This document shows positions 9,796 through 45,659 of a stretch of 64,000 nucleotides of DNA, in pieces. Positions within the stretch are counted from its first letter, which is position 1. Every line of letters starts with the position of its first letter. Location of the stretch: the NCBI GenBank assembly GCA_021798985.1, contig JAJZBI010000009.1, positions 9,832-73,831 on the forward strand, written 5' to 3'. Position numbers and translations under genes: made by a program. The notes under the pieces are model-generated. The model was given only the letters and a program-made list of their open reading frames with translations, was not told the DNA's origin and made no database searches. Source of the stretch: Actinomycetes bacterium (GTDB lineage Bacteria > Actinomycetota > Acidimicrobiia > Acidimicrobiales > Bog-793).

Positions 9796-10662
9796 ATGAT
9801 CGACGGCCGGCGCGGTCGCACCAACCGAGCGCCCCTGGAGGCCGCGGCTCCCGCGACCCTTGCGTGGTGGCGACGGCTGCAGGTCGGCCAACGGCTCGCG
9901 CGCGTCGGCGTGACGGCTGACATGGTGACCATCGTCGGCGTGCTCATCGCCGCCGCGACGGCGGTCACCGTGGGCACCGGCCACCTCTACGTGGGTGTCG
10001 CCTTGATCACCGTCGGCGGCTTGATGGACGCCCTCGACGGGGCCGTCGCCAAGGCGGGGCAGTCGAGCTCGCCGCGGGGCGCGTTCTTCGACTCGGTCGC
10101 CGACCGCCTCTCGGACTTCTTGATCTTCGGTGGCGTCGCCTGGTACCTGCTCGACCGACCCGACCCCCGCCTCGCGCTCTTGCCGCTGGCGATCCTCGGG
10201 GTCTCGAGCCTGATCTCCTACCAGCGGGCCAAGGCGGAGTCGCTCGGCTTCAACGCCAAGGGTGGGCTGATGGAGCGGGCCGAGCGCCTGATCTTGCTCA
10301 GCGCCGCCCTCTTGTTCCACATCGTCCTCGTGCCCTTGCTGTGGCTGCTGCTCGCGCTCTGCATCGCCACGGCGGTCGGGCGCTTCCGGCGGGTCTGGCG
10401 CCAGGCAAGCGGCGTGCCGGCGCCGCTGCACCGCTTCGGCAGCCCGGTGCGCATGGAGTCGCGCTGGCGGATGCTGCGCGAGGCCGGTGCGCACGACCAC
10501 GAGCGCGCCGCGCGCCGTCGCGCCCGGCGGGCTCGCCGGGTGAGCACGCCGTTGTCGATGCGGGTCCGCACGGCCTTTGGGGTCGAGGCGACGCCAGCCA
10601 AGCGACCGGGGCGGGAGCGCAGCGTGCGCGCCCTGCGTCGGCGCGTCACCACCGACCGATAG
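9796..10662 (+). CDS. pgsA: CDP-alcohol phosphatidyltransferase, probably phosphatidylinositol-phosphate synthase
   Basis: The product is a membrane enzyme that transfers a phosphatidyl group from CDP-diacylglycerol to an alcohol, probably inositol-1-phosphate given the patA and pimA neighbours. The catalytic motif is D78-x2-D81-G82-x2-A85-K86-x8-G95-x3-D99-x3-D103. All four aspartates are present, but the usual Arg after Ala is Lys here. About six membrane segments follow. At 288 residues it is longer than typical (~220) because of a basic C-terminal tail rich in Arg. ATG 9796 has a strong ribosome site (GAGGAGGGCGG). The gene order matches mycobacterial pgsA1. Confidence 0.8.
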   Translation: MIDGRRGRTNRAPLEAAAPATLAWWRRLQVGQRLARVGVTADMVTIVGVLIAAATAVTVGTGHLYVGVALITVGGLMDALDGAVAKAGQSSSPRGAFFDSVADRLSDFLIFGGVAWYLLDRPDPRLALLPLAILGVSSLISYQRAKAESLGFNAKGGLMERAERLILLSAALLFHIVLVPLLWLLLALCIATAVGRFRRVWRQASGVPAPLHRFGSPVRMESRWRMLREAGAHDHERAARRRARRARRVSTPLSMRVRTAFGVEATPAKRPGRERSVRALRRRVTTDR

Positions 10663-23526: not shown

Positions 23527-29587
<6,061 letters not shown>

Positions 29588-30020: not shown

Positions 30021-30026
30021 GTGGCC

Positions 30027-30395
30027 ATGGAGCGCGAGCACGACGAACGTCCCTGGGGCTGCTACACGGTTCTCGAGGACGCGCCCGACCACAAGGTGAA
30101 AGAGATCGTGGTGCGACCGGGCCGCCGCCTCAGCTACCAGCGGCACCTGCGGCGCTCCGAGCACTGGTTCATCGTCCGCGGGGAGGGCTATGTCGTCCTC
30201 GATGGCGTCGAGTCCGCGGTGCGCGCCGGCGACACGGTCGATGTCCCCGTCGGTACCTGCCACCGCATCGGCAACCACTCGGACGATGACCTCGTCTTCG
30301 TCGAGGTGCAGCACGGGGAGTACTTCGGCGAGGACGACATCATCCGCCTCGAGGACGACTTCGGACGCCAGGACGCCCCCGAGCCGGCCACCTAG
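30027..30395 (+). CDS. Stand-alone cupin similar to type II phosphomannose isomerase
   Basis: The 122-residue protein is a single cupin barrel like the C-terminal domain of bifunctional mannose-1-phosphate guanylyltransferase / mannose-6-phosphate isomerase. It starts RPWGCYTVLEDAPDHKVKEI, then RLSYQRHLRRSEHWFIVRGEG and a metal-site motif VPVGTCHRIGN. The glutamine/histidine metal ligands of the family (YQRH, EHW, HRI) are visible. It probably isomerises or binds a phosphosugar, but activity is not proven. It converges with the sugar ABC permease gene, 53 nt apart, which fits a role in sugar handling. Confidence 0.75.
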   Translation: MEREHDERPWGCYTVLEDAPDHKVKEIVVRPGRRLSYQRHLRRSEHWFIVRGEGYVVLDGVESAVRAGDTVDVPVGTCHRIGNHSDDDLVFVEVQHGEYFGEDDIIRLEDDFGRQDAPEPAT

Positions 30396-30448: not shown

Positions 30449-31774
30449 TCAGCGGGTCGAGGTCGCGCCCCGGCGGCTCAGCGCATCGACGGTCACCGCC
30501 GCGACCAGCACCAGCGCCGTGATCATGTACTGCGCCGCGGCGGACAGGCCGAGCAGGCCCATGCCGTTCGCGATCGCGGCGATGATGATCCCGCCGATGA
30601 GGGCGTGCAGCATCTTGCCGCGCCCGCCGAACAGGCTGGTGCCGCCGATGACGGCGGCGGCGACGGCGTCGAGGACGAGGGTGCCGCCGTCCATGCCGTT
30701 CGAGATCGAGCCGAGCTGGGAGGCGTAGACGATGCCGGCGGCGCCGGCGGTCATCGCGGTGAGGACGAAGGCGATCGTGCGGATCCGCCCGAGGCTGATG
30801 CCGGCGCGCCGGGCCGCCTCGGCGTTGCCGCCGATCGCGTAGATGTAGCGGCCATAGCGGGTGCGGCCGAGCAGGAAGGTCCAGCCGACGAGGATCACCA
30901 AGGTGATCGGCACCACCCACGGCACCCCCTCGAGGGTGCTGATGCGGCCGCGGTTGGTGTTGCAGATCCACACCACGACGATCCCGGCCGCCGCCATGGC
31001 GGCGATCTTTAGGTAGGTGAGAGCGGCCGGCGGGGCGGCGAGCCCGGCGCGGCGGCGCAGGAAGTCACGGCGCCAGAAGAAAAAGCCGGCGATCGCCACC
31101 ACGGCGATCATCGCGATCCAGCCGACGGCGGGGTCGAGGTTGCCGTTGACGACGTCGGAGAGGATGTTGTTCGTGATCCCGACGGTGCCGCCGCTCGCCA
31201 CCGAGTTGTTCTCGAGCAGGAAGAGCATCAGGCCCTCGAAGCCGAGCAGGCCGCCCAGGGTGACAACGAAAGAGGGCAGGCCGAGCCGGGTGATGAGCGT
31301 GCCCTGGACCAGGCCCAAGAACGCCGCTGCCGCCAGGCCGGCGAGGATCGCCACCCACCACGGCTCGGGGTGGGGATAGGCGGCGAGCTCCAAGGTGACC
31401 GTGGCCGAGATGCCCGCCACGTAGCCGATCGACAGGTCGATCTCGCCGAGCAGCAAGACGAAGACCTCGGCCATCCCGAGCAGGATGTAGGGCGCGCCCT
31501 GGGTCATGAGGTTCGTCAGGTTGGCTGCGGTCAAGAAGTTCGAGTTGAGGACCTGGAAGATGATGACCAGGAGGACGAGGCCGGCGAGGACCGGCAAGAT
31601 CCCGCTCTGGCCGGCGCGCACGCGCTTCCACCAGCCGCCGACGTACTCAGAAAAGGTCTCGGCGACGAGCGCATCAGAGGCCGTGAGCTCCTCGATCACC
31701 TCGCTCGCCGCGCCGCTGCTTGGTGCGGCGGCCGGGGCGACGGTGGGCTCGCCGGGACGAAGGGTTGATGACAT
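30449..31774 (-). CDS. Sugar ABC importer permease (CUT2, XylH-like)
   Basis: The 441-residue membrane protein belongs to the BPD_transp_2 family of ribose/xylose-type importers. It has about ten hydrophobic segments after an ~60-residue soluble N-terminus. Family features include LGEIDLSIGYVAGISA, SFVVTLGGLLGFEGL, the ATPase-coupling region GGNAEAARRAGISLGRIRT and the terminal GGTSLFGGRGKMLHALIGG. ATG 31774 follows the ATPase stop by 3 nt. It is the last gene of the binding protein-ATPase-permease operon. Its XylH-like size and the XylF-like binding protein suggest a pentose, by inference. Confidence 0.88.
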   Translation of the reverse strand: MSSTLRPGEPTVAPAAAPSSGAASEVIEELTASDALVAETFSEYVGGWWKRVRAGQSGILPVLAGLVLLVIIFQVLNSNFLTAANLTNLMTQGAPYILLGMAEVFVLLLGEIDLSIGYVAGISATVTLELAAYPHPEPWWVAILAGLAAAAFLGLVQGTLITRLGLPSFVVTLGGLLGFEGLMLFLLENNSVASGGTVGITNNILSDVVNGNLDPAVGWIAMIAVVAIAGFFFWRRDFLRRRAGLAAPPAALTYLKIAAMAAAGIVVVWICNTNRGRISTLEGVPWVVPITLVILVGWTFLLGRTRYGRYIYAIGGNAEAARRAGISLGRIRTIAFVLTAMTAGAAGIVYASQLGSISNGMDGGTLVLDAVAAAVIGGTSLFGGRGKMLHALIGGIIIAAIANGMGLLGLSAAAQYMITALVLVAAVTVDALSRRGATSTR

Positions 31775-31777
31775 CGC

Positions 31778-32650
31778 TCAGTGGTCCTTTGCGTCGTCCG
31801 TGCTGGGCGCGGCGCTGTTGGCGGCGCTGCGGGGCGTCGCGGCGCCGGTGGTGATCATCTCGACGGTGTTCTGGGTGTCGAACTCAGCGATCGGGCCCTC
31901 CCCGGCGAGCCGGCCGAGGTAGAGGACGGCGATCCGGTCGGCGACCTCGAAGACGTCGCGCAGGTTGTGGCTGATGACGAGGACGGCGATGCCGCGCTCG
32001 GCGAGGCGCTTGATGAGCGCGAGCACCTGGGCGGTCTGGGTGACGCCGAGGGCGGCGGTGGGCTCGTCCATGATGACGAGCTCGGCGTTGCCCATCACGG
32101 CCTTGGCGACCGCGACGGCCTGGCGCTGGCCGCCGGAGAGGGAGGCCACGAGCTGGCGGATCGAGCGCACCGTGACCACCGAGAGGTCGGCGAGGGCCTG
32201 CTTCGCGCCGAGCTCCATCGTGTTCTCGTCCAAGGTCCGCGCCCGCAGCCGCTCGCGCCCGAGGTAGAGGTTCTGGACGATGTCGAGGTTGTCGCAGAGC
32301 GCGAGGTCCTGGAAGACCGTCGCGATCCCGAGCGCGCTGGCGTCGCGGGGCGTGTGGATCCGGACGGGCTTGCCCTTCCAGTAGATCTCGCCGTGGTCGG
32401 GGGGAGCGATCCCGGCGATCGCCTTGATCAGGGTCGATTTGCCCGCCCCGTTGTCCCCGACCAGCGCGGTGACCTGGCCGGCGGGGACCTCCATGGTGAT
32501 GTCGCTCAACGCGCGCACCGAGCCGAAGCTCTTGTTGATGGCGCGCAGCTGCAAGAGCGGCTCTCCGACCGGCGTCGCCGGGGCGGACGCGCCGCCGGGC
32601 GCCCGGGCCGCCGAAGCGGCCCGGGCGCCCTGCATGGCGTCGGTGGTCAA
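31778..32650 (-). CDS. Sugar ABC importer ATPase, single nucleotide-binding domain
   Basis: The 290-residue ATPase has one complete ABC domain: Walker A VGDNGAGKSTLIK, Q-loop TVFQDLALCDNLDI, signature ASLSGGQRQAVAVAKA, Walker B LVIMDEPTAALG and H-loop VLVISHNLRDV. CUT2 importers usually have an ATPase with two ABC domains (~500 residues, RbsA/XylG). This one is of the single-domain, FrcA-like size. The start is TTG 32650 with GAGG 7 nt upstream; ATG 32635 is an alternative. It lies between the binding-protein and permease genes. Its ABC sequence resembles that of the kinase-fused ATPase at 37306 (both have QDLALC-NLD and LSGGQRQ). Confidence 0.9.
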   Translation of the reverse strand: MTTDAMQGARAASAARAPGGASAPATPVGEPLLQLRAINKSFGSVRALSDITMEVPAGQVTALVGDNGAGKSTLIKAIAGIAPPDHGEIYWKGKPVRIHTPRDASALGIATVFQDLALCDNLDIVQNLYLGRERLRARTLDENTMELGAKQALADLSVVTVRSIRQLVASLSGGQRQAVAVAKAVMGNAELVIMDEPTAALGVTQTAQVLALIKRLAERGIAVLVISHNLRDVFEVADRIAVLYLGRLAGEGPIAEFDTQNTVEMITTGAATPRSAANSAAPSTDDAKDH

Positions 32651-32684: not shown

Positions 32685-33881
32685 TCAGATGCCTGCAGCC
32701 TTGCACGCCGCGGCGTAGGGGCCGGCGCACAGCTGCTTGGCGGGGACGAACTTGTCCTTGAGGATCGTCGCCTTCATGTTCTTCGTGGTCACCCACTCCG
32801 GGGTCAGCAGCACCGAGGGGACCGCCTTGTGCTCCTGGGTGTCCATCGTGGTGCCGTTGGCGAGCGCCTTGGGCGGGGTGACCCCGGCCCGCAGGTAGAT
32901 GCCAAGGGCGGCCGCGGCCTGGGCCTCCAGGTAGATCGGCTTGTAGACGGTGCCGCACTGGTAGCCGGTGAGGATGTTCTGCAGGCCGACCAGCGTGGCG
33001 TCCTGACCGGTGATCGGGAACGTCTTCGGCTTGATGTGCTGCTGGCTCTTCAGCCAGGTGATGATCGGGGCCGCGTTCTCGTCGTTCGGCACCACGGCGC
33101 TGTTCATGTTCTTGTGCGCCGTGAACTGCTGGGTGAACTCGGTCTGGGCGACCGAGGGCGTCCAGGTCCCCGCCGGCTGGCCGACGATGGTGATCTTGTG
33201 CGCCTTGACGAGCGGGTTGAGGACCGACATGTAGCCCTCAGCGAACAGCGTCGCGTTGTTGTCCGTCGGCGCGCCGCGCATCACGAGGGCGTTGGGGTGC
33301 TTGATGTGCCACGCCGCCACGCAGGAGACGAAGCCGTGGCCGATCAGCCGGCCGACCTGCACGTTGTTGAAGCTGACGTAGTAGCTGCGGCTGCCGCCCA
33401 AGGTGAGGCGGTCGTAGTCGACCACCGCAGCGCCGTGGCTCTTCGCGTACGCCTCGATGCGGGCGCCGACGCCCGAGTCGAGGGGGTCGACGAGCAGGAC
33501 CTTGGCGCCCTGGGTGATGTCGGCCTGGGCGTCGGCGTACTGGGTGGCGTCGCTGCCCTGGGCGTTTTGGATGATGAAGTCGGAGGCCGGCATGCCGGCC
33601 TTGAGGAACGCCTCCTTCAGGTACGGGGCGTCGAACTCGGTGTAGCGAGCCGACGTCGTCGTGTCGGGCAGGATGGCGGCGATCTTGCCGCTGCCCTTGG
33701 CCACGAGCGGCTTGAGCTTGGCCATGACCGAGAAGGTCAGGTTGAACGAGCTGGCCGAGATGACCGGCGTGGCGCCGGCGTGCGTCTTGGTGCTCGCGCC
33801 GGCGACCCCGGCTCCTGCCGCGATCATGCCGGCCGACAGGGCGAGCGGCGTGACCGCACGGGCTGCCTTCTGGAACTTCAT
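32685..33881 (-). CDS. Sugar ABC importer substrate-binding protein (XylF-like)
   Basis: A 398-residue periplasmic-type binding protein. It has a signal peptide (KFQKAARAVTPLALSAGMIAA, cleavage near AGA-ST) with no lipobox cysteine, so it may be secreted or anchored otherwise. The fold is Peripla_BP_4: ILPDTTTSARYTEFDAPY, GAKVLLVDPLDSG and AVVDYDRLTLGGSRSYYVSF, close to xylose-binding proteins. ATG 33881 has AAAGGGGGGT just upstream. A longer open frame to 34151 covers the promoter region and is rejected. It heads the importer operon downstream of the kinase-regulator pair. Confidence 0.88.
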   Translation of the reverse strand: MKFQKAARAVTPLALSAGMIAAGAGVAGASTKTHAGATPVISASSFNLTFSVMAKLKPLVAKGSGKIAAILPDTTTSARYTEFDAPYLKEAFLKAGMPASDFIIQNAQGSDATQYADAQADITQGAKVLLVDPLDSGVGARIEAYAKSHGAAVVDYDRLTLGGSRSYYVSFNNVQVGRLIGHGFVSCVAAWHIKHPNALVMRGAPTDNNATLFAEGYMSVLNPLVKAHKITIVGQPAGTWTPSVAQTEFTQQFTAHKNMNSAVVPNDENAAPIITWLKSQQHIKPKTFPITGQDATLVGLQNILTGYQCGTVYKPIYLEAQAAAALGIYLRAGVTPPKALANGTTMDTQEHKAVPSVLLTPEWVTTKNMKATILKDKFVPAKQLCAGPYAAACKAAGI

Positions 33882-33982: not shown

Positions 33983-33988
33983 AGGGTA
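33983..33988 (-). promoter_or_regulatory. Candidate -10 element for the sugar importer operon
   Basis: TACCCT on the minus strand, about 102 nt upstream of ATG 33881. The -35 region (GGAGCC at 17-nt spacing) is poor, as in activator-dependent promoters. The TNAAC repeats lie immediately upstream. Confidence 0.45.
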
Positions 33989-33999
33989 CGAAGCGCGCG

Positions 34000-34048
34000 G
34001 TTAACGGCTCCATCAACATTTCGACCGCCTCGTTAACAATCCATGAAC
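34000..34048 (-). promoter_or_regulatory. Two tandem pairs of TNAAC half-sites, likely response-regulator binding sites
   Basis: On the plus strand the region reads GTTAAC-N6-ATCAAC (34000-34017) and GTTAAC-N5-ATGAAC (34032-34048). The half-sites in each pair are 11-12 bp apart and the two pairs are 32 bp apart, about three helical turns. OmpR/PhoB-type regulators bind such direct repeats. The site lies between the response regulator gene and the importer promoter. Confidence 0.5.
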
Positions 34049-34089: not shown

Positions 34090-34834
<745 letters not shown>

Positions 34835-34842
<8 letters not shown>

Positions 34843-37306
34843 CACCGCCGTCCTCGGCATGGGCCGCGGCGGCCTCGACGGGCAAGGTGATGTGAACGCA
34901 GGTGCCGGCGCGACTCGAGACGGGAACGATGCGGCCCTCGTGCGCGTCCACGATCGCCCGCGCGATCGACAGGCCGAGCCCGGTGCCGGCGCTCGGCGAG
35001 CGATGGCGCCGCCCCGGCTCGAAGGGCGCCCGGGCCACCGCGTCGGGCAGGCCGGTGCCGTTGTCGGCAACCGACACCGTCACCTCCTCCGGCGTCGAAG
35101 AGACGCTGACGCGGACCGTGGTGCCGGGCGGGTTGTGGCGGATGGCGTTGTCCATCAGGTTCACGAAAACCTGCTCGAGGCGGTCGTGGTCGGCGAGGAT
35201 CGCCGGCACGTCGCCCTCGGCCGCAATGGCGACGTGCGCGGCCGCCTCAGGAGCAAGGCAGGCACGCGCCGCGTCGAGGATCAAGCAGAGGTCGCACCAG
35301 TCCCGCTGTAGGCGCAGCACGCCGGATTCGAGCGCGGAGAAGTCCAACAGGTCCTCGACGAGGCGTCCAAGGCGCGCCGATTCGGAGGCCATCCGGCTCA
35401 AAAAGCGCGCGATCGATTCGCCGTCCCAGGTGATGTCGGGCTGCAGCAGCGTCTCGGCATAGCCCTGGATGGCGGTGAGCGGAGTGCGCAGCTCGTGGCT
35501 CAGCCGAGAGAGGAAGTCGCGCTGGAGCTGGCGCGAGCGCCGCAGCGCCTCGGCCTCTTGCTGGACGATGCCGATCTCCTCGCGCTCGAGCGCGAGGCGC
35601 AAGCAGTGCGCGGCATCGCCGAGCAGGGCGGTTGCCGTCTCGGGCACCTCCTCGCCCGAGAGGCGGGCGACGAGCGCGCCGGGCCCCGCTGGAGCCGAAA
35701 AGCGCGTCGACAACAAGACCCTGGCGTCGCCGTCTCCTGGGTGCTCGAAGCGCACGTTCACCGCGCCGTCGCTCTCCGCCGTCTCGAGCATGCCCGAGGC
35801 GAGCGCGACGGCCCGGGGGGACGCGGCCGGCAGCAGCTCGTCCGGCCCGGCGCCAGGGGCCGAGGTGGCGCTGCGCACGAGCACGCCGCCCTCGCGCAGC
35901 CCCGTGGCGAGCACGACCTCGTCGGCGCCGAGCCCCTCGCGCAGCGCCCGCAGCGCGATCGCCAGCCCCTCGGCGACGAGGATCGGCCCGGCGAGGGTCT
36001 CGAGCACCTCGCGGATCGTCTCGAGGACGCGGTTGCGCGAGGTGACCTCGCCAAAGAGCCGGTCGCGCTCGAGAGCGCTGGCGGCGTAGCCGGCGTACAA
36101 GGTGACGAGGTCGAGCTCGTCGCGCCCCGGCCGGCCCGCCGTGGCGCGCAGCACCGTGATCGCCCCGCTCGGCCCGTCGGGGCCCATGATCGGCACGGCC
36201 CAGGAGCTCTCGACGCCCGCGGTCTTGGCGAGCCAGCCAAAGCGCGCCCAGCTCAGACTCGAGCGGACGTCCTCGTCGATCACCGGTTCGCCGCGCGCCG
36301 CGGCGAGCCCGGCCGGTCCGCCGGCGGGGCCGAGGTCGAGCTCGGCGAAGGCCTCGAGCACGGGAGTTGCGAGGCCGAGGCTCGCCGCGCAGGTCAGCGT
36401 GGCGCCGTCGAGTCGGTGGATGGCGAGGCGCTCGTCACCGAGCGCGGCGCCGAGCGCCGAGCAGATCAAGGTGAGGCTGGACGAGCGATCGGCGGTGGTC
36501 AGCTCGTCGACCAGGTGCTGCAGGCGGCTCAGTTGGTGGCGGGCCGTGCCGCTGACCGCCCGTCCGCCCATCAACGCGATCACGTCGTCGGGGTAGACGC
36601 GCTCGGGGTTCACCTCGGCGACTCGCCGCCCGCCGCGCATGATCACGAGGCGGTGCGGGATGCGGAACATCTGGCCGAGGTCGTGGGAGATCATCAAGAC
36701 CGCCGTGCCCTCGGCGGCGAGGGCGCGGACGAGCCGCTCGACCTCAGCGGATTCGCCGAGGCCGAGGGCGGCGGTGGGCTCGTCGAGGACGAGGAGGCGG
36801 GGCCGGTCGCGCACCGCCCGGGCGATGGCGAGCAGCTGGCGCTGGCCACCCGACAGGGCGCGGACGGGAGTCGTCGGATCGAGCGCGACGTTGAGCGCCT
36901 CGAGCATCGCCCGGGCGCGGCGGTGCCGGCGGGAGTCTGAGCTCGCAAAGAAGCCGTCCTCCCGCCCGAGCAGCAGGTTCGAGGTGACGTCGAGGTTCTC
37001 GCACAGCGCCAGGTCCTGCCAGACGACCGTGACCCCCGCCCGGGCGGCCGCCGCGGGGTCCCCGGTGACCTCCGCGCCGTCGACGCGCACGGCTCCCGCC
37101 GCGGGCTGCAGGTCCCCGGCGATGCAGCGCACGAGGGTCGATTTGCCCGCGCCGTTCTCCCCGACGAGCCCGAGGATCTCACCCCCTTGGAGCGCGAGGT
37201 CGGCGCCGTTCAAGACGGCGAGCGGGCCAAAGCGCACGACGAGGCCAGTGACCTCGAGCAGGGGCGCGCCGACGCTGGACGCGACGGCGCTCTCCAAGGC
37301 AACCAC
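34835..37306 (-). CDS. ABC-transporter ATPase fused to GAF-GAF-histidine kinase
   Basis: A single 823-residue frame joins two machines. Residues ~10-240 are a complete sugar-importer-type ABC domain: Walker A with K55 (GENGAGKST), Q-loop VVWQDLALCENLDV, signature L151-SGGQ, Walker B D175-E176 and H-loop H208. Residues ~255-415 and ~416-575 look like GAF domains. Then come HisKA with phospho-acceptor H604 (LSRLSHELRTPLTAIQGYAE) and HATPase with N720 (NLMDNAIRHN), VADNGTGLPD and GTGLGLSIARAIVDAHEG. No membrane segment or signal peptide is seen, so it is soluble. The start is uncertain: GTG 37306 (GAGG upstream) or TTG 37297. The longer open frame to 38638 is antisense to another gene. It overlaps its response regulator by 8 nt. 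Confidence 0.88.
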
Positions 37307-37462: not shown

Positions 37463-38476
37463 ATGGCGCAGAATCGCAAGTCCCGAGGCGGCACCCGCCG
37501 CCCGGCCGCCGTTGCCGCTTCCGTGGCACCCCGGCGCAGTGCGCCACCGGCCGGCGACACGGCCCGGGCGCGGCGCAGCCGGCAGGCGGGCTGGATGGTC
37601 GTGGCTGCTGTCGTCGTCGTGGCGCTCGTCCTCGTGCTGATCAACGTGCTCGAGGGCGCGACCGGCAGCTCGAGCCCGGTCGTCACCGGCGCCGACCGAA
37701 GCCCGGCGGCCGCCCCGGCGGCTGCGGTACAGGCGCTGACGAGCATCCCGAGCGCCGTCTACGACCGAATCGGCACGAGCGGGGAGCCGGCGCCCTTCGC
37801 CATCACCGCCGGCCAGCCGCCGCTCCGCCTGTCCGGCAAGGCGCGCCTCGTCTACGAAGGCGCCGAGTACTGCCCCTACTGCGCGGCGGACCGCTACGCG
37901 ATCATCGCCGCCTTGGCGCGCTTTGGGCGCTTTTCCGGCCTCGGGGTCACCGCCTCTGGCGACAAGGACGGCAACATCCCCACCTTCAGCTTCCTCAACA
38001 GCACCTATCAGAGCCGCTACGTCGCCTTCACCCCCTACGAGGCGGCCGATCGCCTCGGCCAGCCGCTCCAGCGCGTCCCCCAACAGGTGCAGAAGCTCTT
38101 TGCCACCTACGCCGGCGACCCGGCGACGAACACCGCGTCGCGATTCGGCGCCAATCGCTGGGCCGCGCCCGGCATCCCCTTCTTGGACCTCGCCAATCGC
38201 TACGTCGTCGCGGGGACTTCGAGTGCCCTCGCAACGGTCGTGGAAAGCGGCGTGCTGAACAAGGACAAGACCGACATCGTCGCCATCTCCAAGGCGATCC
38301 GCGCCCCGGCGACGGCAGCCGGTCGCCGGATCGGCGCGGCCAGCTTTGTCGCCGACGCCAACTACCTCGCCGCGGGGATCTGCAGCGTCGACGGTGGCCG
38401 GCCCGCCAGCGTGTGTGCTTCCGCGGGAGTGCGCCACGCGGCAACGGTGCTCGCCCGGGTGCCGCCGATCCGCTGA
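37463..38476 (+). CDS. DUF929 membrane-anchored thioredoxin-like protein
   Basis: The 337-residue protein has a basic cytoplasmic start, one membrane segment (GWMVVAAVVVVALVLVLIN) and an extracytoplasmic domain of the DUF929 family. The domain carries EYCPYCAADRYAI, a CxxC pair in a thioredoxin-like setting. Later conserved stretches are FSFLNSTYQSRYVAF and IPFLDLANRYVVAG. The family is suggested to be thiol-disulfide related, but function is unproven. ATG 37463 has GCGAGG upstream. The gene diverges from the ABC-kinase gene (156 nt apart). Confidence 0.75.
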   Translation: MAQNRKSRGGTRRPAAVAASVAPRRSAPPAGDTARARRSRQAGWMVVAAVVVVALVLVLINVLEGATGSSSPVVTGADRSPAAAPAAAVQALTSIPSAVYDRIGTSGEPAPFAITAGQPPLRLSGKARLVYEGAEYCPYCAADRYAIIAALARFGRFSGLGVTASGDKDGNIPTFSFLNSTYQSRYVAFTPYEAADRLGQPLQRVPQQVQKLFATYAGDPATNTASRFGANRWAAPGIPFLDLANRYVVAGTSSALATVVESGVLNKDKTDIVAISKAIRAPATAAGRRIGAASFVADANYLAAGICSVDGGRPASVCASAGVRHAATVLARVPPIR

Positions 38477-38591: not shown

Positions 38592-39728
38592 TCAGGCCTC
38601 GGGGCCCTCCTCGCCGTCGGTCGTCTCGCCCTCGCCACCGGTGAAGGTGCCCGTCTCGCCCGCCGGCGGCGGCACCGTCGGGGCCTCGCTCGGCACGAGG
38701 CGGTTGAGCTCGTCGATCAGCTGGCGGAGCCGGCCGTGGTGCGTGCGGTCGAACTCGAGGGCGATCCGGGCCAGCTCGAGTTGGTCTCCGCTCGAGCGCT
38801 CGGCGGCGAGCGGCTCGGTGCGCCAGATGCCCCGGGGCGAGCAGATGTCGGCAAAATCCGCCGACAGCCGCGCCAGGTCCTCGTCGCTCGGCGCGTGGCG
38901 GAGCCGGATCACCATCCGCTCGCCCACGAAGCGGCGCGAGTGGTAGTTGCGGTGGAAGGTGAGGAGCTCTTCGATGGCCTCGCCCACGTCGTCGGTGATG
39001 CGGTAGAGGTGGGTGTCGGCGGGATCCGCCAGCTTGTGGCCATAGACCTGGTCGACGACAAAGCGCTCCCATCCGCGCCAGTACCCGCCGCCAGCGACGT
39101 CGACGAGAACGATCGGAGCCGGCTCGGCCTTGCCGGTCTGGAGTAGCGTGAGCAGCTCAAAGGCTTCATCGAGCGTGCCGAAACCCCCCGGCAGGCAGGC
39201 GAAGCCCGTGGACTCTTTCATCAACATGAGCTTCCTCGTGAAGAAGTACTTCATGTCGACGAGCTTCTCGTTGCTCGCGATCCAGGCGTTCGGTTCGGTC
39301 TCGAACGGCAGGCGGATGTTGACCCCGATCGCCATCTCGGGCCCGGCGCCCTCGTTGCCTGCGGCCATGATCCCCGGGCCGGCGCCGGTGACGACCATCC
39401 AGCCGGCATCGGCCATCTTGCGGGCGAGCTCGCGGGCCAGGCCATAGAGCTGGTCGGAAGGTGCCGTGCGGGCCGAGCCGAAGATCGTCAGCTTGGGGAC
39501 ATCGTGGTAGGGGGCGAACATCCGAAAGCCGTCGCCCATCTCGGCGAGCGCGGTGCCGACGATCTTCAGGTCGAGCCGATCGGTCTCGTCGCCGGCCAGG
39601 CGCAATGCCGAGAGGACGAGGCGGCGGATGAGGTCGCGGTTCTTGCGCACGCCGAGCTCGCCGAGCAGCTCTTCGACGAGTGCGTCGCTGGGGCGGCCCT
39701 GCTCGGACGGCTCGAGTTCCTTGGTCAT
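38592..39728 (-). CDS. LOG-family protein (TIGR00730-like nucleotide phosphoribohydrolase fold)
   Basis: The 378-residue protein has the LOG Rossmann-like fold: LTIFGSARTAPSD, VVTGAGPGIMAAGNEGA and the hallmark CLPGGFGTLDEAFE, plus R and K residues expected at the phosphate site. Family members cleave nucleoside 5'-monophosphates, as in cytokinin activation. Here the protein has extra N- and C-terminal parts; the last ~30 residues are acidic and Gly-rich (TGGEGETTDGEEG). The start is ATG 39728; a longer frame runs antisense to pgl and is rejected. It lies 29 nt after pgl, at the end of the sugar-phosphate operon. The physiological substrate is unknown. Confidence 0.8.
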   Translation of the reverse strand: MTKELEPSEQGRPSDALVEELLGELGVRKNRDLIRRLVLSALRLAGDETDRLDLKIVGTALAEMGDGFRMFAPYHDVPKLTIFGSARTAPSDQLYGLARELARKMADAGWMVVTGAGPGIMAAGNEGAGPEMAIGVNIRLPFETEPNAWIASNEKLVDMKYFFTRKLMLMKESTGFACLPGGFGTLDEAFELLTLLQTGKAEPAPIVLVDVAGGGYWRGWERFVVDQVYGHKLADPADTHLYRITDDVGEAIEELLTFHRNYHSRRFVGERMVIRLRHAPSDEDLARLSADFADICSPRGIWRTEPLAAERSSGDQLELARIALEFDRTHHGRLRQLIDELNRLVPSEAPTVPPPAGETGTFTGGEGETTDGEEGPEA

Positions 39729-39757
39729 CGGCTGCTCATCGTGACACGCCGGCCGGC

Positions 39758-40456
39758 TCAGTCCGCGAAGGGCACGGCGAGCGGCACCGTCGGCAGGTCG
39801 CCGGCGGCCTCGCGGTCGACGAGCAGCAAGCGCTCGGGCGCCTTGACGTGCGCGGCCGGCAGGTCGGCGCCCTCGTGCAGCGCGACGAGGACGTCGTGCT
39901 TGGCGGCGCCGAACGCAGTCATGACGACGAGGGCGCCCCGCGAGATCGCGCCATAGGTCAAGGTGAGGCGCGGGTGGGCGTTGTTGCCGCTCGGGTCCTC
40001 GTTGCGGGCGACGAGGACCTCGGCTGGCGCCTCGAGCGCGGGCGAGTGGGCGAACAGCGAGGCCGTGTGGCCGTCGGGGCCGAGGCCGAGCTGGATGAGC
40101 TCGAAGGCGCCGCCGGCCGCCGCGATCTCGGCGGCGTAGGCCTCGGGGCCTGTGGTGCACGACATCGGGTGGAAGCCGAAGAGGCGCAGGCGCGTCTCGG
40201 CGAGCGCCTCGGCGAGCGAGCGGGCGTTGGAGTCGGGGTGATCCGGCGGGACGCAGCGCTCGTCGACGAGGAAGAAGTCGACGCGGGACCAGTCGAACTC
40301 GGTGGCGACCAGGGCCTCCAAACAGGCGCGGCCCGCGCTGCCGCCGGAGAAGGCGAGGCGGAACCGGGGGGTGCGCTGGCGGCGGAGGGCCGCGTGGGCG
40401 AGCGCGGCGAAGGCGCTCGGCACGTCCTCGACGAGGCTGAGCGGCGGGAGGCTCAC
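39758..40456 (-). CDS. pgl: 6-phosphogluconolactonase
   Basis: Pgl hydrolyses 6-phosphogluconolactone in the oxidative pentose phosphate pathway. The 232-residue protein has the family motifs FRLAFSGGSAGRACLEAL, FFLVDERCVPPDHPDSN and LGLGPDGHTASLFAHSP. GTG 40456 overlaps the zwf stop (GTGA), so it is coupled to zwf. The very long open frame upstream of this start is antisense noise within zwf. Confidence 0.92.
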   Translation of the reverse strand: MSLPPLSLVEDVPSAFAALAHAALRRQRTPRFRLAFSGGSAGRACLEALVATEFDWSRVDFFLVDERCVPPDHPDSNARSLAEALAETRLRLFGFHPMSCTTGPEAYAAEIAAAGGAFELIQLGLGPDGHTASLFAHSPALEAPAEVLVARNEDPSGNNAHPRLTLTYGAISRGALVVMTAFGAAKHDVLVALHEGADLPAAHVKAPERLLLVDREAAGDLPTVPLAVPFAD

Positions 40457-42006
40457 GGGTTGCGCCACTGGCGGTTGGAGCTCTCGATGAGACGGTCGGC
40501 CTCGATCGGGCCCCAGGTGCCGACGGGGTAGCGGGCGAGGGGCGGCTCCCCCTCGGCGAAGGCGTCTTGGATCGGGGCGACGATCTGCCAGGCCTGCTCG
40601 ACCTCGTCGGTGCGGATGAACAGCATCGGGTCGCCGGTCATCGCGTCGAGCAGCAGCCGCTCGTAGGCCTCGGCCGTGCCGCCGGGGAAGGCCTGGCTGT
40701 AGGAGAAGTCCATCGAGACGGTGCGCACCGTGAAGCTCGGCCCGGGCACCTTGGCGCCAAAGCACAGGCTGATGCCCTCGTCGGGCTGGATCCGCAGCAC
40801 CAGCGCGTCGGTCGACAGGTCGCGGGTCAGCTGGCCGGCGAAGGGGAGGTGCGGGGGGCGCTGGAAGACCATGACCACCTGGGTCTCGCGGCGCACGAGC
40901 CGCTTGCCGGTGCGCACGAAGATCGGCACGCCGGCCCAGCGCCAATTGTCGACGGCGAGCTGCATCGCCACGTAGGTCTCGGTCAGCGAGGCGGGATCGA
41001 CGCCCTCCTCCTCGCGATATCCCGGCAGCTCGTTGCCCTTGACCTTGCCGCGCACGTATTGGGCGCGCACGACGCGGTCCACCTCTTGATCCGAGCCGGG
41101 GATCACGACCGAGCGCAGCACCTTCACCTTCTCGTCGCGAATGGAGTTGCCCTCCATGGTCGCCGGCGGCTCCATCAAAGTGAGCGCCAAGACCTGCATG
41201 ACGTGGTTCTGCACGATGTCGCGCAGCGCCCCGGCGTGCTCGTAGAAGTTGCCGCGGTGCTCGACCCCGAGCTCTTCGGCCACGGTGACCTGGACGTGGT
41301 CGACGTATCGGCGGTTCCAGATCGGCTCGAAGATGGCGTTGGCGAAGCGCAGCGCCAAGACGTTCTGGACGGTCTCTTTGCCCATGTAGTGGTCGATGCG
41401 GAAGATCTGCTCCTCGTGGAAGCACTCGTGCAGCTCCCGGTCGAGCTGCTGGGCGCTTTGGAGGTCGACGCCGAAGGGCTTCTCGACGACAAGGCGAGCG
41501 AAGCTGCCGCCCGGCCCCGGCTCGTTCGCCTTGAACGCCGCGAGGCCCCGGGCGACCGTGCCGAACAAGTCGGGATTGGTGGCGAGGTAGTACACGCGGT
41601 TGCCCGCCGTGCCGCAGTTCACGTCGAGGTCGGCGAGCACCGAGGCGAGCTGCTCGAAGGTCGCGGGGTCGCCGTAGTCCCCGGCCACGTAGCGGAAGCG
41701 CCCGGCCAGCTGGTCCCAGCGCGGGTTGTCCTCGGCGCCCTCGACGCCCCGGCAGAGCTGTCGGAAGCCATCGTCGCCCATGACGCTGCGCGCGACGCCG
41801 ACGACGCTGAAGCCCTCGGGGAGGTTGCCAAGACGTGCCTGGCGGGCGAGGGCGGGCAGCAGCTTGCGGGAGGCGAGATCGCCAGAGGCGCCGAAGATGA
41901 CGAGCGCCAGCGGATCGGGTCGGCGCTGGGGGGTGTTGGGCACCTCGTCCGCCGCCCGGTCCAGGGCGTCTTGCAGCGCGTCGTCGAGGGGGGGAGCGAG
42001 GCTCAC
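40453..42006 (-). CDS. zwf: Glucose-6-phosphate 1-dehydrogenase
   Basis: Zwf oxidises glucose-6-phosphate, reducing NAD(P). The 517-residue protein shows the nucleotide motif LVIFGASGDLASRKLLPAL, the active-site stretch FRIDHYMGKETVQN, and the conserved LVVEKPFGVDLQSA. The C-terminal segment PVGTWGPIEADRLI is typical. GTG 42006 overlaps gnd (GTGA) and the stop overlaps pgl. The opcA gene that normally follows zwf in actinobacteria is absent here, so redox regulation may differ or opcA lies elsewhere. Confidence 0.95.
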   Translation of the reverse strand: MSLAPPLDDALQDALDRAADEVPNTPQRRPDPLALVIFGASGDLASRKLLPALARQARLGNLPEGFSVVGVARSVMGDDGFRQLCRGVEGAEDNPRWDQLAGRFRYVAGDYGDPATFEQLASVLADLDVNCGTAGNRVYYLATNPDLFGTVARGLAAFKANEPGPGGSFARLVVEKPFGVDLQSAQQLDRELHECFHEEQIFRIDHYMGKETVQNVLALRFANAIFEPIWNRRYVDHVQVTVAEELGVEHRGNFYEHAGALRDIVQNHVMQVLALTLMEPPATMEGNSIRDEKVKVLRSVVIPGSDQEVDRVVRAQYVRGKVKGNELPGYREEEGVDPASLTETYVAMQLAVDNWRWAGVPIFVRTGKRLVRRETQVVMVFQRPPHLPFAGQLTRDLSTDALVLRIQPDEGISLCFGAKVPGPSFTVRTVSMDFSYSQAFPGGTAEAYERLLLDAMTGDPMLFIRTDEVEQAWQIVAPIQDAFAEGEPPLARYPVGTWGPIEADRLIESSNRQWRNP

Positions 42007-42923
42007 TTGGCGCCTTTCTCGGCCTGGGTCCGCTCGACAGCATGGCCGCCGAACTGGTTGCGCAGCGCCGCCAGGATGCGGTTGGCGAAGTCGCCGTTGT
42101 TGCGGGACGCGAAGCGCCGGTAGAGGGATTCGGTCATCACCGGTGCGGGGACGCCCCGCTCGACCGCCTCTTGGATGGTCCAGCGTCCCTCGCCCGAGTC
42201 CTCGACCCATGGCTCGATCGTCTCGAAGCCCGAGTCCGGCCGGAGCGCGAGCTCGGCGAGCTCGAGCAGCCACGACCGCACGACCGAGCCGTAGCGCCAG
42301 ATCGCGGCGATCTGGTGCAGGTCGAGGTCGAATTCCTTGGCGGCGCCCATCAGCTCGAAGCCCTCGGCATAGGCCTGCATGAGGCCATACTCGATGCCGT
42401 TGTGCACCATCTTCACGAAGTGCCCGGCACCGACCGGACCGACGTGCGCGTAGCCACCCTCGGGGGCGAGGTCGACGAGCACCGGCTCGACCTTGTCGAC
42501 CGCCTCCTTGTCGCCGCCGACCATCAAGCAGTAGCCGTTCTCCAGCCCCCAGACCCCTCCGGAGGTGCCCGCGTCCACGAACTGGACGCCCTTGCGGCCG
42601 AGCGCTTCGGCGTAGGGGACCGCCGTCTTGTAGTTGGAGTTGCCGCCGTCGATCACGACGTCGCCGGTCGAGAGCAGCTCGCCGAGGGCGGCGATGGTCT
42701 GGTCGGTCGGGTCCCCGGCGGGCACCATCACCCAGATCGCGCGGGGGGCGTCGAGCGCGGCGACGAGCGCTTCGAGGCTGGCGGCCGTGCGGGCGCCCTG
42801 GTCCGCCACCTGCTTGCGCGCCGCCTCGCCGAGGTCGAAGCCGACGACGTCGTGGCCGCGCCGCAGCAGGCGGAGGGTCATGTTGGCGCCCATCCGTCCC
42901 AGTCCCACCATGCCGAGCTGCAT
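42003..42923 (-). CDS. gnd: 6-phosphogluconate dehydrogenase, short (decarboxylating GndA-type)
   Basis: The 306-residue protein is of the short class of 6-phosphogluconate dehydrogenases, about two-thirds of the Escherichia coli enzyme. It has QLGMVGLGRMGANMTLRLL (dinucleotide fold), DGGNSNYKTAVPYAEAL, the GTSGGVWGLENGYCLMVGG substrate motif and the KMVHNGIEYGLMQAYAEG catalytic Lys-Asn region. ATG 42923 has GGAGGAG 5-7 nt upstream. A longer start at 42998 is rejected. The short class is often NAD-linked, by family knowledge. It is coupled to zwf. Confidence 0.92.
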   Translation of the reverse strand: MQLGMVGLGRMGANMTLRLLRRGHDVVGFDLGEAARKQVADQGARTAASLEALVAALDAPRAIWVMVPAGDPTDQTIAALGELLSTGDVVIDGGNSNYKTAVPYAEALGRKGVQFVDAGTSGGVWGLENGYCLMVGGDKEAVDKVEPVLVDLAPEGGYAHVGPVGAGHFVKMVHNGIEYGLMQAYAEGFELMGAAKEFDLDLHQIAAIWRYGSVVRSWLLELAELALRPDSGFETIEPWVEDSGEGRWTIQEAVERGVPAPVMTESLYRRFASRNNGDFANRILAALRNQFGGHAVERTQAEKGAK

Positions 42924-42959
42924 CGCGCTCCTCCTGTGTTTTCTTCGAGGCTGACTCTT

Positions 42960-42984
42960 CCTCGAGGAGCGCTGCTCCTCGAGG
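42960..42984 (-). terminator. Perfect 11-bp inverted repeat between pgi and gnd
   Basis: CCTCGAGGAGC, loop of 3, GCTCCTCGAGG. It starts 37 nt upstream of gnd and ~90 nt after pgi. It may end or attenuate the tal-pgi transcript, protect the gnd mRNA 5' end, or be a protein site. No T-tract follows. Confidence 0.45.
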
Positions 42985-43074
42985 CGTCCGTGATCCAACG
43001 GCGCGGCGTGCCGCGCGCGGCCAACCGGCCCGCCGGGGGACCCTAGCGGCCGGGGGGTCCCGCCGGCCGGTCGG

Positions 43075-44466
43075 TCAGATCGCCGAGATGAGCTCGCCGA
43101 GGTCGTCGAGCGCGACGCGCAGCACGCGCCGACCGTGGGACTCGAGGCTCTGGTGGTCGCCGATCGCCTGCGCGGCGATCAAGGTGTTGAAGTCATAGGG
43201 CTTGTCAGGGATGGCGACCGACGGGCGCGCGCTGCGCTCGACGATCTGCAGCGCGACGACTGAATTGGGCCCGCCCTTGTGCAGCTGGCCGGTCGAGTGC
43301 AAGAAGCGGGGGCCGTACCCGGCGGTCACCGCCATGCCCCCGTGCGCGTCGCGTACGGCCGTGCGCAGCCGCTCGAGCTGGTCCTCGCTGCCGTAGGGAA
43401 GGTAGGCCTGGATGCTGACATAATCGCCCGGCTTCACCTGCTCTTCGAGCCACGGGCGGACCGCCTCGGGCGCGACCGACGCCAGCGAGGGGAGCGGCAG
43501 GTCCTCGAGCACCTTGTTGGTATTCGCCTTGGACTCAGCGACATTGGGCTCGTCGAAGGGATCGATGCCGAGCCCGTGCCCGGCGGCCGCCGTGGCGAGC
43601 TCGAAGCGGTAGAAGACCGCGCCGAGCTCGTGGGCGCTCGACAGCTCGACGGGGATTACGTGGCGGTCCTCGCCGCGTTCGTCGTCACTCGTCGGCACCG
43701 GCACGCAGCCCCGGTCGCGCTTTCCGGTCGACTCGGCGACCAGCTGCTCAAGCCACAGGCCGAGCGAGCGCTGGGCTGCGGGGACCACGAAGGTCGCCTT
43801 GTCCTGGCCGGCCTTGGCCGCCTCGGCCATCGCGAGGCCGATCTGGACCGCCTCGGGGCCGTTGACCTCAAGCGCCCGGCCGCAAAGCTCTTCGAGGTCG
43901 TAGCCGGCGAGCGCGGCGGGGACGAGGCCGAAGTACGAGAGCACCGAGTAGCGCCCGCCGATGTCGGCCGGGTTGGTGAAGAGCCGGTAGACGCCGAGCT
44001 CGGCGGCCTCGCCGGCGAGCGGGGTGCCAGGGTCGGTGATGACGGCGTAGCGCTTGGGGTCCTTCAGGCGGGCCCGCGCGGCCGCGAAGAGCACGTTCGG
44101 CTCGAGGGTCGTGCCGGACTTGGAGGAAACGAGGACGAAGGCGTCCTCGATCGGCGCGGCGGCGACCGTGGTCGGATCGGTCGTGTCGCACACGACGATG
44201 CGCCGGCCGCGCTGGCCGAACGCGTCGCGGATCTGGGCGAGGACCTCGGGGCCGAGCGACGAGCCGCCCATGCCGAGCAGGACGACGGTGTCCTGGTCGA
44301 CGTTGCGCGCCCAGCTCGCCAGCTCTTTGGCCTGGCGTTCCATCTCCCGGGGCACCTCGAGCCAGCCGAGGCGGTTGGCCGAGACGTTGTGCTCGGGCCA
44401 CAGCGTGGCGTCGCGGGCGACCAGGCGGCGGTAGAGGTCCTCGGGCTCGAGGACGGCGGCCGGCAT
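43075..44466 (-). CDS. pgi: Glucose-6-phosphate isomerase
   Basis: The 463-residue protein interconverts glucose-6-phosphate and fructose-6-phosphate. The SIS-type fold shows VVLLGMGGSSLGPEVLAQ and VLVSSKSGTTLEPNVLFAA, with later LHKGGPNSVVALQIV. It belongs to the Pgi type found fused to transaldolase in other bacteria. Here ATG 44466 overlaps the tal stop (TGATG), so the two are separate but tightly coupled. A GTG codon just upstream at 44469 is possible but unnecessary. Confidence 0.93.
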   Translation of the reverse strand: MPAAVLEPEDLYRRLVARDATLWPEHNVSANRLGWLEVPREMERQAKELASWARNVDQDTVVLLGMGGSSLGPEVLAQIRDAFGQRGRRIVVCDTTDPTTVAAAPIEDAFVLVSSKSGTTLEPNVLFAAARARLKDPKRYAVITDPGTPLAGEAAELGVYRLFTNPADIGGRYSVLSYFGLVPAALAGYDLEELCGRALEVNGPEAVQIGLAMAEAAKAGQDKATFVVPAAQRSLGLWLEQLVAESTGKRDRGCVPVPTSDDERGEDRHVIPVELSSAHELGAVFYRFELATAAAGHGLGIDPFDEPNVAESKANTNKVLEDLPLPSLASVAPEAVRPWLEEQVKPGDYVSIQAYLPYGSEDQLERLRTAVRDAHGGMAVTAGYGPRFLHSTGQLHKGGPNSVVALQIVERSARPSVAIPDKPYDFNTLIAAQAIGDHQSLESHGRRVLRVALDDLGELISAI

Positions 44467-45590
44467 CACTTGGCCGACAGCGCGTCAGCCTTCTGGCTGA
44501 GGCGGTCGATGAGGTCGTCGAAGGACTTGGTGAAGGCGGCGATCCCCTCGACCTCGAGGGTGTGGGTGACGTCGTCCAGGTCGACGCCGACCTCGGCGAG
44601 GCCGGCGAGGTCGGCTCGGGCCTGCTCGACGCCGGTGTCGACCGTGCGGGCGAGCGTGCCGTGGTCCAAGAAGCCATCGACGGTGGCGCCCGGCATGGTG
44701 TTCACCGTGTCGGGGCCGATGAGGCCGTCGACGTAGAGCAGGTCGGGGTAGGCCGGGTTCTTCGTCGAGGTCGACGCCCACAGCGGTCGCTGCACCTTGG
44801 CGCCCTTGGCGGCCAGCGCCGCGAAGCGCGGCGAGCCGAAGCGCTCGCCGAACAGGGCGTAGGCGAGCTTGGCGTTGGCGACGGCCGCCTTGCCGCGCAG
44901 CTCGGCGGCCCGCTTGGCGCCGGCCCCGCCCTCGGCGAGCACGGCCTCGAGGCGCCGGTCGACCTCGGTGTCGACCCGGCTGACGAAAAAGGAGGCGACC
45001 GAGGCGACCCGGCTCGGATCCCCGCCAGCGGCGACCAGGCGCTCCAGCCCCTTCAGGTACGCCTCGATTACCGCGCCGTAGCGCTCAAGGGAGAAGATCA
45101 AGGTGACATTGACGTTCTTGCCGGCGGCGATGGTGTCCTCGATCGCCGGGATCCCCTCGCGCGAGGCGGGGATCTTCACGAACAAGTTGGGCTTGTCGAT
45201 CCGCTCGTGCAGGTCCTTGGCCGCCGCGGCGGTGCCGGCGCTGTCGTGGGCGAGGGACGGGGCGACCTCGAGCGAGACGAAGCCGTCGGCGCCCCCCGAC
45301 TCGTCGTACATCGGCCGGAACAGGTCGAGCGCGCCGTTGATGTCGGCGATGACCATGTCCCAGTAGGCGTCGTCGATTGAGGCGCCGGCCTTGATCAGCG
45401 AGGAGAACTGCTCGTCGTAGTCGCTGCCCTCAGAGATCGCCTTCGCCATGATCGTGGGGTTCGATGTCACCCCCCGGATGCCAAGGTCAATCAGGCGCTG
45501 CAGGCCCCCGGCGACGACGTAGCTGCGCTTCAAGTCGTCGATCCAGGGGCTCTGGCCCTGCTGCTCGTAGAGATCGTGCAGACGCGTCAC
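44466..45590 (-). CDS. tal: Transaldolase
   Basis: Tal exchanges three-carbon units in the non-oxidative pentose phosphate pathway. The 374-residue protein carries GVTSNPTIMAKAI, the Schiff-base K139 in NLFVKIPASREG, and VASVASFFVSRVDTEVD. The C-terminal QRPLWASTSTKNPAYPDLLY is a family signature. GTG 45590 has AGAGGAG 6 nt upstream; an extension to 45629 is rejected. It is the first gene of the tal-pgi-gnd-zwf-pgl-LOG group. Confidence 0.94.
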   Translation of the reverse strand: MTRLHDLYEQQGQSPWIDDLKRSYVVAGGLQRLIDLGIRGVTSNPTIMAKAISEGSDYDEQFSSLIKAGASIDDAYWDMVIADINGALDLFRPMYDESGGADGFVSLEVAPSLAHDSAGTAAAAKDLHERIDKPNLFVKIPASREGIPAIEDTIAAGKNVNVTLIFSLERYGAVIEAYLKGLERLVAAGGDPSRVASVASFFVSRVDTEVDRRLEAVLAEGGAGAKRAAELRGKAAVANAKLAYALFGERFGSPRFAALAAKGAKVQRPLWASTSTKNPAYPDLLYVDGLIGPDTVNTMPGATVDGFLDHGTLARTVDTGVEQARADLAGLAEVGVDLDDVTHTLEVEGIAAFTKSFDDLIDRLSQKADALSAK

Positions 45591-45659
45591 GGGCCGCTCC
45601 TCTTGGTCGCCAGATCCGCGCCGCGCCATTCACCAACCGACGCGTCGCGCTTTCATGCG

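Follow-up and report, generated by a model that had tools for sequence, protein, structure and literature searches.

A soluble ABC ATPase–histidine kinase fusion of Actinomycetota, linked to a xylose-type importer and possibly reading its state

A 64,000-nucleotide stretch of an Acidimicrobiales genome (GenBank assembly GCA_021798985.1, contig JAJZBI010000009.1, forward-strand positions 9,832 to 73,831; hereafter the window) carries a gene that joins, in one reading frame, an ATP-binding cassette (ABC) ATPase domain to a GAF-containing histidine kinase. The fusion gene adjoins the genes for a response regulator and a sugar importer, and its ABC domain descends from the same lineage as that importer's own ATPase. 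Our view, held on balance and with some reserve, is that these genes form a self-regulating xylose-type import operon in which the input to the kinase comes from an engine-derived ABC domain that docks on the importer permease.

The fusion protein is read from the minus strand as 823 residues without a stop (37306..34835 in translation), while the plus-strand reading is interrupted by stops, and the gene is present as a single copy in its own genome. An earlier note on this DNA had described one intact frame from ABC domain to kinase without stating a strand, and the motif positions it gave are those that we find. In the ABC domain the Walker A motif GENGAGKST lies at residues 49-57 (K55), the Q-loop and coupling segment at 94-116, LSGGQ at 151-155, Walker B at 171-176 (D175-E176) and the H-loop histidine at H208, all of them canonical. 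In the kinase, H604 and N720 are accompanied by D748, G750 and G778, and these five residues, by which a bacterial HisKA kinase is recognised, are present in every one of the 35 members that are full-length for the kinase motifs among the 36 homologues aligned. The note's tandem GAF domains survive in part: the first is matched by Pfam GAF_2, while the second has no Pfam match and is recognisable only as a degenerate domain, which AlphaFold models, over residues 418-566 (pLDDT 84.6), with a GAF/roadblock-type fold whose best VIA Z values of about 10-11 are tied between roadblock/MglB and GAF structures. The model of the whole chain (mean pLDDT 83.4) finds its best full-length Foldseek matches in bacteriophytochromes, and its pTM is 0.39; thus the single domains are reliable but their mutual arrangement is not. 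In agreement with the note's statement that no membrane segment is present, no 19-residue window of the fusion exceeds 1.8 on the Kyte-Doolittle scale, compared with 47 such windows in the permease.

The same domain order recurs, at 37-87% identity, across dozens of independent assemblies. Genomes with a fusion relative number 10 of 35 in the window's family, 19 of 298 in its order, 4 of 66 in another class and 3 of 42 in the family of genome G114, and a scan of 84,980 species returned about a dozen contigs with the same architecture. All of the relatives found belong to Actinomycetota, soil-dwelling and acidophilic forms among them, and are scattered patchily over several orders and classes of this phylum; the broad scans used one query sequence, which very distant fusions would escape. 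The fusion is present in the complete genome of Conexibacter sp. S30A1 (locus L029) and in G114, a single-contig genome. None of 72,556 plasmid records covers 80% of the fusion protein, and the matches among viral contigs are weak, most of them covering the ABC part alone or the kinase part alone. A frameshift or assembly join between the ABC and GAF parts, which the earlier note had named as the result that would overturn it, was looked for and not borne out, given that the architecture recurs in independent genomes.

The neighbours are conserved as well. The response regulator that the note saw overlapping the fusion does so by 8 bp, the fusion's stop codon TGA (34837-34835) lying inside the start of the regulator gene (ATG 34842-34840; ATGGCTGA), and the sugar importer that it placed alongside consists of a XylF-like sugar-binding protein (SBP), a XylG-like ATPase and a permease, encoded on the same strand (Table 1). 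The survey of architectures and neighbouring genes that the note had proposed finds this set again: at every sufficiently long locus the regulator follows the fusion, with the SBP and permease genes adjoining. Gene order is mostly collinear. The exceptions are L087, where the importer genes are opposite in strand to the fusion and regulator, and L185, where the two halves diverge head-to-head; in both the halves lie on opposite strands yet remain adjacent, and a linkage that survives such rearrangement argues for function. Outside the set, no further gene family common to all loci was seen. The XylG-like ATPase belongs to the set except at four loci. L045 (8202-13698; genome G292) and L091 (4944-10441; genome G694) carry the fusion, regulator, SBP and permease with no separate ATPase in the operon, and the coupling helix of their permeases has diverged; at another locus (L094), G292 has a second operon in which SBP, ATPase and permease are all present. 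At L080 (2988-12446) and L081 the XylG-like ATPase is absent, and between the regulator and the XylF-like gene lies a second importer, an insertion comprising an SBP, a permease and a different type of ATPase.

The set also has a candidate operator of its own, located upstream of the SBP gene. It consists of four GTTNAY half-sites at offsets 0/11/31/42-43, facing roughly the same side of the helix, and is followed after about 11 bp, in many relatives, by a TANNNT-like sequence. Within the 3.76-Mb genome to which the window belongs, the pattern with at most three mismatches occurs once, at this promoter, the reversed control pattern likewise giving one match. A 42-bp variant has a single site in each of the genomes G114, G196 and G514, in all three at this promoter, and none in G292 or G694. 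Operator scores of at least 16 out of 22 were obtained at 27 of 35 loci, where 0.067 are expected per region, and several of the eight misses had a site lying merely outside the scanned stretch. An automatic rule, requiring a score of at least 17.5 upstream of the SBP gene, picked out 28 of 38 fusion loci and none of 20 same-clade importers without a fusion, the best of which reached 17.0 (Fisher 1.8e-8, an optimistic P value given that the loci are related). The window, L020 and L021 are misses under this rule since the start of the SBP query covered the operator; scored separately, they reach 21.5, 22 and 21. The two loci L185 and L186, which were not used in defining the pattern, score 20 and 21, and at the rearranged L087 and L185 the site precedes the SBP gene and is not located after the regulator. 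As far as can be read from sequence, these features are those expected of an OmpR/PhoB-family regulator whose target is local and reserved for it, and the regulator linked to the fusion probably binds this operator.

The history of the fused ABC domain connects it with the importer. In a tree of 74 ABC domains, 33 of them fused, all of the fused domains form one clade (support 100/98) that is sister to the operon ATPases, and the branch uniting the two (98/94), which also holds one Myxococcota importer ATPase, gives the fused domain common descent with an importer ATPase. To explain this topology, one duplication and a single fusion suffice. The fused domains share a mean identity of 50% as against 65% for the separate ATPases, and are the lower in 300 of 300 locus pairs; on these comparisons the fused copy is evolving faster than its counterpart. 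This change is uneven along the domain. Residues K55, D175 and E176 are invariant in all 36 members, L113-G114-E116 are invariant too, and Q97 and C102 are kept in 35 and 34 of the 36. A segment of the form WQDLALC-NLDV-NL-LG-E, which by analogy with other importers would face the permease coupling helix, is retained, and the mean conservation of the Q-loop/coupling segment is 0.81 compared with 0.63 for the whole fused ABC domain. The signature and H-loop are altered at G153 in 7 of 36 members, at G154 in 3 and at H208 in 4, such that the hydrolysis motifs (signature or H) are eroded in about a third of the family. No XylG-like operon ATPase departs from LSGGQ or lacks the H, the inserted ATPases of L080 and L081 being of another type. 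Read together, the constant Walker motifs and contact segment and the varying signature and H suggest that ATP binding and a presumed docking face have been kept, and that hydrolysis has not always been.

The earlier note had suggested that the ATPase itself could report the state of the transporter to the kinase. Its single origin, its linkage to the importer, the retained contact segment and the dedicated operator all speak for this part of the idea. The fused copy is probably not the main engine, because the importer possesses a canonical ATPase of its own; the erosion of its hydrolysis motifs in about a third of members makes it better seen as an engine-derived sensor part. As sole motor of the importer the fused ABC domain is unlikely in the window, and at L045 and L091 it could still be one.

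The extent of the remaining input region differs between members. A GAF_2 match is found in 32 of 36, and GAF2 is the least conserved region of the fusion (0.47). In the Conexibacter-type members L028-L030 the spacer between ABC domain and kinase is only about 100 residues, most of GAF1 and all of GAF2 being missing, and these loci retain the ABC domain, kinase, regulator, operator and importer. The GAF domains being nearly gone in these three, the ABC domain and the kinase constitute the core of the protein, and the ABC domain is probably the input of the kinase.

The mechanism that we favour would run as follows. In an ancestral actinobacterium, a duplicate of the importer ATPase would have become joined, on one occasion, to a HisKA kinase that was soluble and contained GAF domains. 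As a dimer, this kinase would present two ABC domains, and the pair would bind the permease at its cytoplasmic coupling helices, replacing or alternating with the separate ATPase; the symmetries of a kinase dimer and of a permease-bound ABC dimer would match. Once docked, the ABC domains would track the inward or outward state of the permease as set by the sugar-loaded SBP and ATP, and the signal would presumably travel from there as a conformational change, which the GAF/coiled-coil segment would relay to the HisKA dimer, setting its kinase versus phosphatase activity. The phosphorylated regulator would then bind the four tandem half-sites before the SBP gene and, we infer, activate rather than repress the importer genes, its only detectable target. 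A stronger version, which we put forward tentatively and are inclined to doubt, is that the fused ABC domain acts as a decoy engine, sitting on the permease in place of the real ATPase and thereby making the importer a transmembrane receptor. Were this true, the importer of the L045/L091 lineage would have become a dedicated receptor-kinase; at L045 and L091 an importer may have turned into a receptor, or the system may be in decay.

As for the sugar, the window SBP is closest to XylF. Residues D90, R91, N137, W169, N196, D222 and K242 of E. coli XylF, which we take to be its D-xylose contacts (numbering checked on the 3m9w alignment), are identical in the window SBP, and the seven positions are invariant among 35 aligned SBPs apart from one gap at K242. 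The importer is thus described here as xylose-type, with xylose a candidate for its true ligand.

Four observations weigh against the scheme that we favour. Among the 48 genomes of the order with the ATPase of this importer, 31 gave no match to the fusion (loci L187-L206 carry importers of the same clade), and the fusion is therefore not required for transport. The conservation of the Q-loop segment could be a legacy of the ATPase. L045 and L091 have no operator, and the fused ABC domain of G694 (L091) has lost the Q of the Q-loop, the signature and the H; these members must therefore work differently or be in decay. Finally, the genome of the window has no clear xylose isomerase (best match 112 bits against a cut-off of 533), making it uncertain that xylose is the physiological sugar; a clear gene occurs only in the g163 genomes among those searched, and xylose isomerase was for that reason dropped as a proof of xylose use.

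Other explanations of the fusion have to be set beside this one. The kinase might read turnover, in the manner of BceAB-BceS, from a heterodimer of the fused ABC domain and the separate ATPase within one importer. The two types of ATPase are of one lineage and kept together, the fused domain of the window is fully canonical, and the notion that a kinase can sense flux through an ABC transporter is an established one (PMC10314905). Nevertheless we consider this unlikely, given that at L028-L030 the fused copy has lost signature residues and/or the H-loop, which would impair one or both composite ATP sites, that some operons have no separate ATPase, and that a kinase homodimer would presumably demand two transporters or asymmetric packing.

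An alternative of distinctly lower probability is that the protein makes no contact with the permease and serves as a cytosolic energy sensor, ATP-driven closure of the ABC dimer reporting ATP/ADP to the kinase and the operon being induced by energy state. A soluble protein in which Walker A and B are invariant in 36 of 36 members while the hydrolysis motifs erode is what such a sensor would look like, yet this explanation leaves four things unaccounted for: the linkage to one sugar importer, the origin from its ATPase lineage, the higher conservation of the Q-loop/coupling segment, and the altered coupling helix in the operons that have no separate ATPase. Less probable again is that the input is a cytosolic ligand, such as a sugar phosphate, recognised by the GAF domains, with the ABC domain a mere dimerisation or membrane-anchoring element. 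GAF is a common kinase input domain (PMC8534201) and is found in most members here, but L028, L029 and L030 do without most of it while the remaining set is intact, and the second GAF domain is the region that conservation has held least; an essential sensory role for these domains is unlikely given those three loci. That the frame is an artefact of assembly or annotation, or a decaying chance fusion, can be dismissed with near certainty: metagenome assemblies supply most of the homologues, but the identical frame occurs in independent genomes, two of them complete, which rules out a join or frameshift, and the kinase motifs are kept in every full-length member.

Table 1. Features of the fusion gene, its linked genes and the candidate promoter in the window (positions are those of the window)
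Feature	Position	Strand	Remarks
Fusion gene, ABC ATPase-GAF-GAF-like-HisKA-HATPase_c, soluble	34835..37306	-	start approximate: GTG 37306 or nearby
ABC (nucleotide-binding) domain, XylG-like, residues 14-248	36563..37267	-	ABC_tran 32-179, E 1e-32 (Pfam)
GAF domain 1, residues 276-415	36062..36481	-	GAF_2 278-413, E 2e-11 (Pfam)
Degenerate GAF-like domain 2, residues 425-555	35642..36034	-	fold in AlphaFold model
HisKA, residues 595-662	35321..35524	-	HELRTPLT with H604; Pfam E 4e-20
HATPase_c, residues 706-811	34874..35191	-	Pfam E 8e-24
OmpR/PhoB-type response regulator, presumed cognate	34090..34842	-	receiver EDD, D, S, K invariant in 38/38
Candidate operator GTTCAT-N5-GTTAAC-N14-GTTGAT-N6-GTTAAC	34000..34048	-	between regulator and SBP genes
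Possible -10 element TACCCT	33983..33988	-	putative; 11 bp past last half-site
XylF-like sugar-binding protein (SBP)	32685..33881	-	profile and contact residues; start ATG 33881, not upstream open reading frame starts
Separate XylG-like single-domain importer ATPase	31778..32650	-	profile, tree; unmentioned in the earlier note
Importer permease, BPD_transp_2, GguB/XylH-like	30449..31774	-	putative coupling helix GGNAEAARRAGI from residue 315

Around the set in the window, a DUF929 gene (37463-38476) diverges from the fusion and is kept, among the loci examined, within the same genus only; a small mannose-6-phosphate-isomerase-type cupin (30021-30395) is convergent with the permease gene; and the large and small subunits of glutamate synthase (GltB, GltD) are read from the sequence at 23527-29587. 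On the other side, 38592-45629 holds a LOG-family gene and pentose-phosphate genes, named in the same way as 6-phosphogluconolactonase, glucose-6-phosphate dehydrogenase, a 6-phosphogluconate dehydrogenase-like protein, glucose-6-phosphate isomerase and transaldolase; these are partly kept at L020, L022 and L018, and several genomes from the same family as the window have pentose-phosphate genes next to the set. Catabolic neighbours were dropped as a clue to the sugar, as outside the set no family recurs across loci. At Conexibacter-type loci a second SBP, of the Peripla_BP_4 family, follows the permease (L029:14192-15439, L028:6280-7410), and an FG-GAP/UnbV-ASPIC repeat protein occupies that place at L025 (14405-16264) and is common to L023, L025, L043 and L092.

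To our knowledge, coupling between an ABC transporter and a kinase has been described only between separate proteins, in which the path of the signal is hard to trace. A natural covalent link between a transport motor and a HisKA kinase, accompanied by its regulator, operator and importer, would allow the step from the open/closed cycle of the ABC domain to the kinase to be studied directly. The natural series of canonical ABC domains, eroded ABC domains, GAF-less members and ATPase-less operons separates transport from signalling, and the fusion is a possible building block for sugar-responsive sensors. The earlier note knew of no description of this arrangement, and we likewise found no earlier account of an ABC-histidine kinase fusion in the open-access full-text literature, subscription journals and preprints being outside that scope. 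As far as these searches show, the component families are known and their union in one chain is undescribed within that literature.

Each component has close counterparts. The CUT2 importers XylFGH and GguAB-ChvE resemble the present one in SBP, ATPase and permease, by profile and by contact residues, but the known systems have no kinase-fused ATPase, whereas here a single-domain ATPase is accompanied by a fused paralogue. MalK, MetN and OpuA are ABC ATPases whose C-terminal domains gate transport or bind regulators; as in the fusion, an addition at the C-terminal side of the nucleotide-binding domain links transporter and regulation, though in none of them is the extra domain a histidine kinase. 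Kinases of the DosS/DosT type and bacteriophytochromes share with the fusion a cytosolic tandem of GAF-type domains before the kinase, but they have no ABC domain and their GAF domains are sensors, while here the GAF domains can be nearly absent.

Two systems are closer in the way that they work. In the proposed working of PstSCAB-PhoU-PhoR, a HisKA kinase and a regulator of the OmpR/PhoB family answer to the state of an importer, and the operator described here resembles what we take to be the tandem 11-bp repeats of the PHO box. There, however, the link is made by PhoU together with a membrane kinase that is a separate protein. None of the five operon genes here is PhoU-like, all of them belonging to other families, and no extra family is common to the loci; lacking PhoU, the fusion system is not a Pst-PhoU-PhoR system. 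In BceAB-BceS-BceR, as here, an ABC transporter and a kinase make up one sensing unit, the kinase reading the conformation of the transporter and the regulator driving the transporter genes (PMC10314905, PMC8534201). BceS, however, is a separate membrane kinase with two transmembrane helices, whereas the fusion is soluble and has an ABC domain within its own chain; the Bce partner is a peptide-resistance transporter, where here it is an SBP-dependent sugar importer with a BPD_transp_2 permease. Having neither a membrane kinase nor a Bce permease, the fusion system is not a member of the Bce group, yet of the known systems it is Bce-type flux sensing that its working most resembles.
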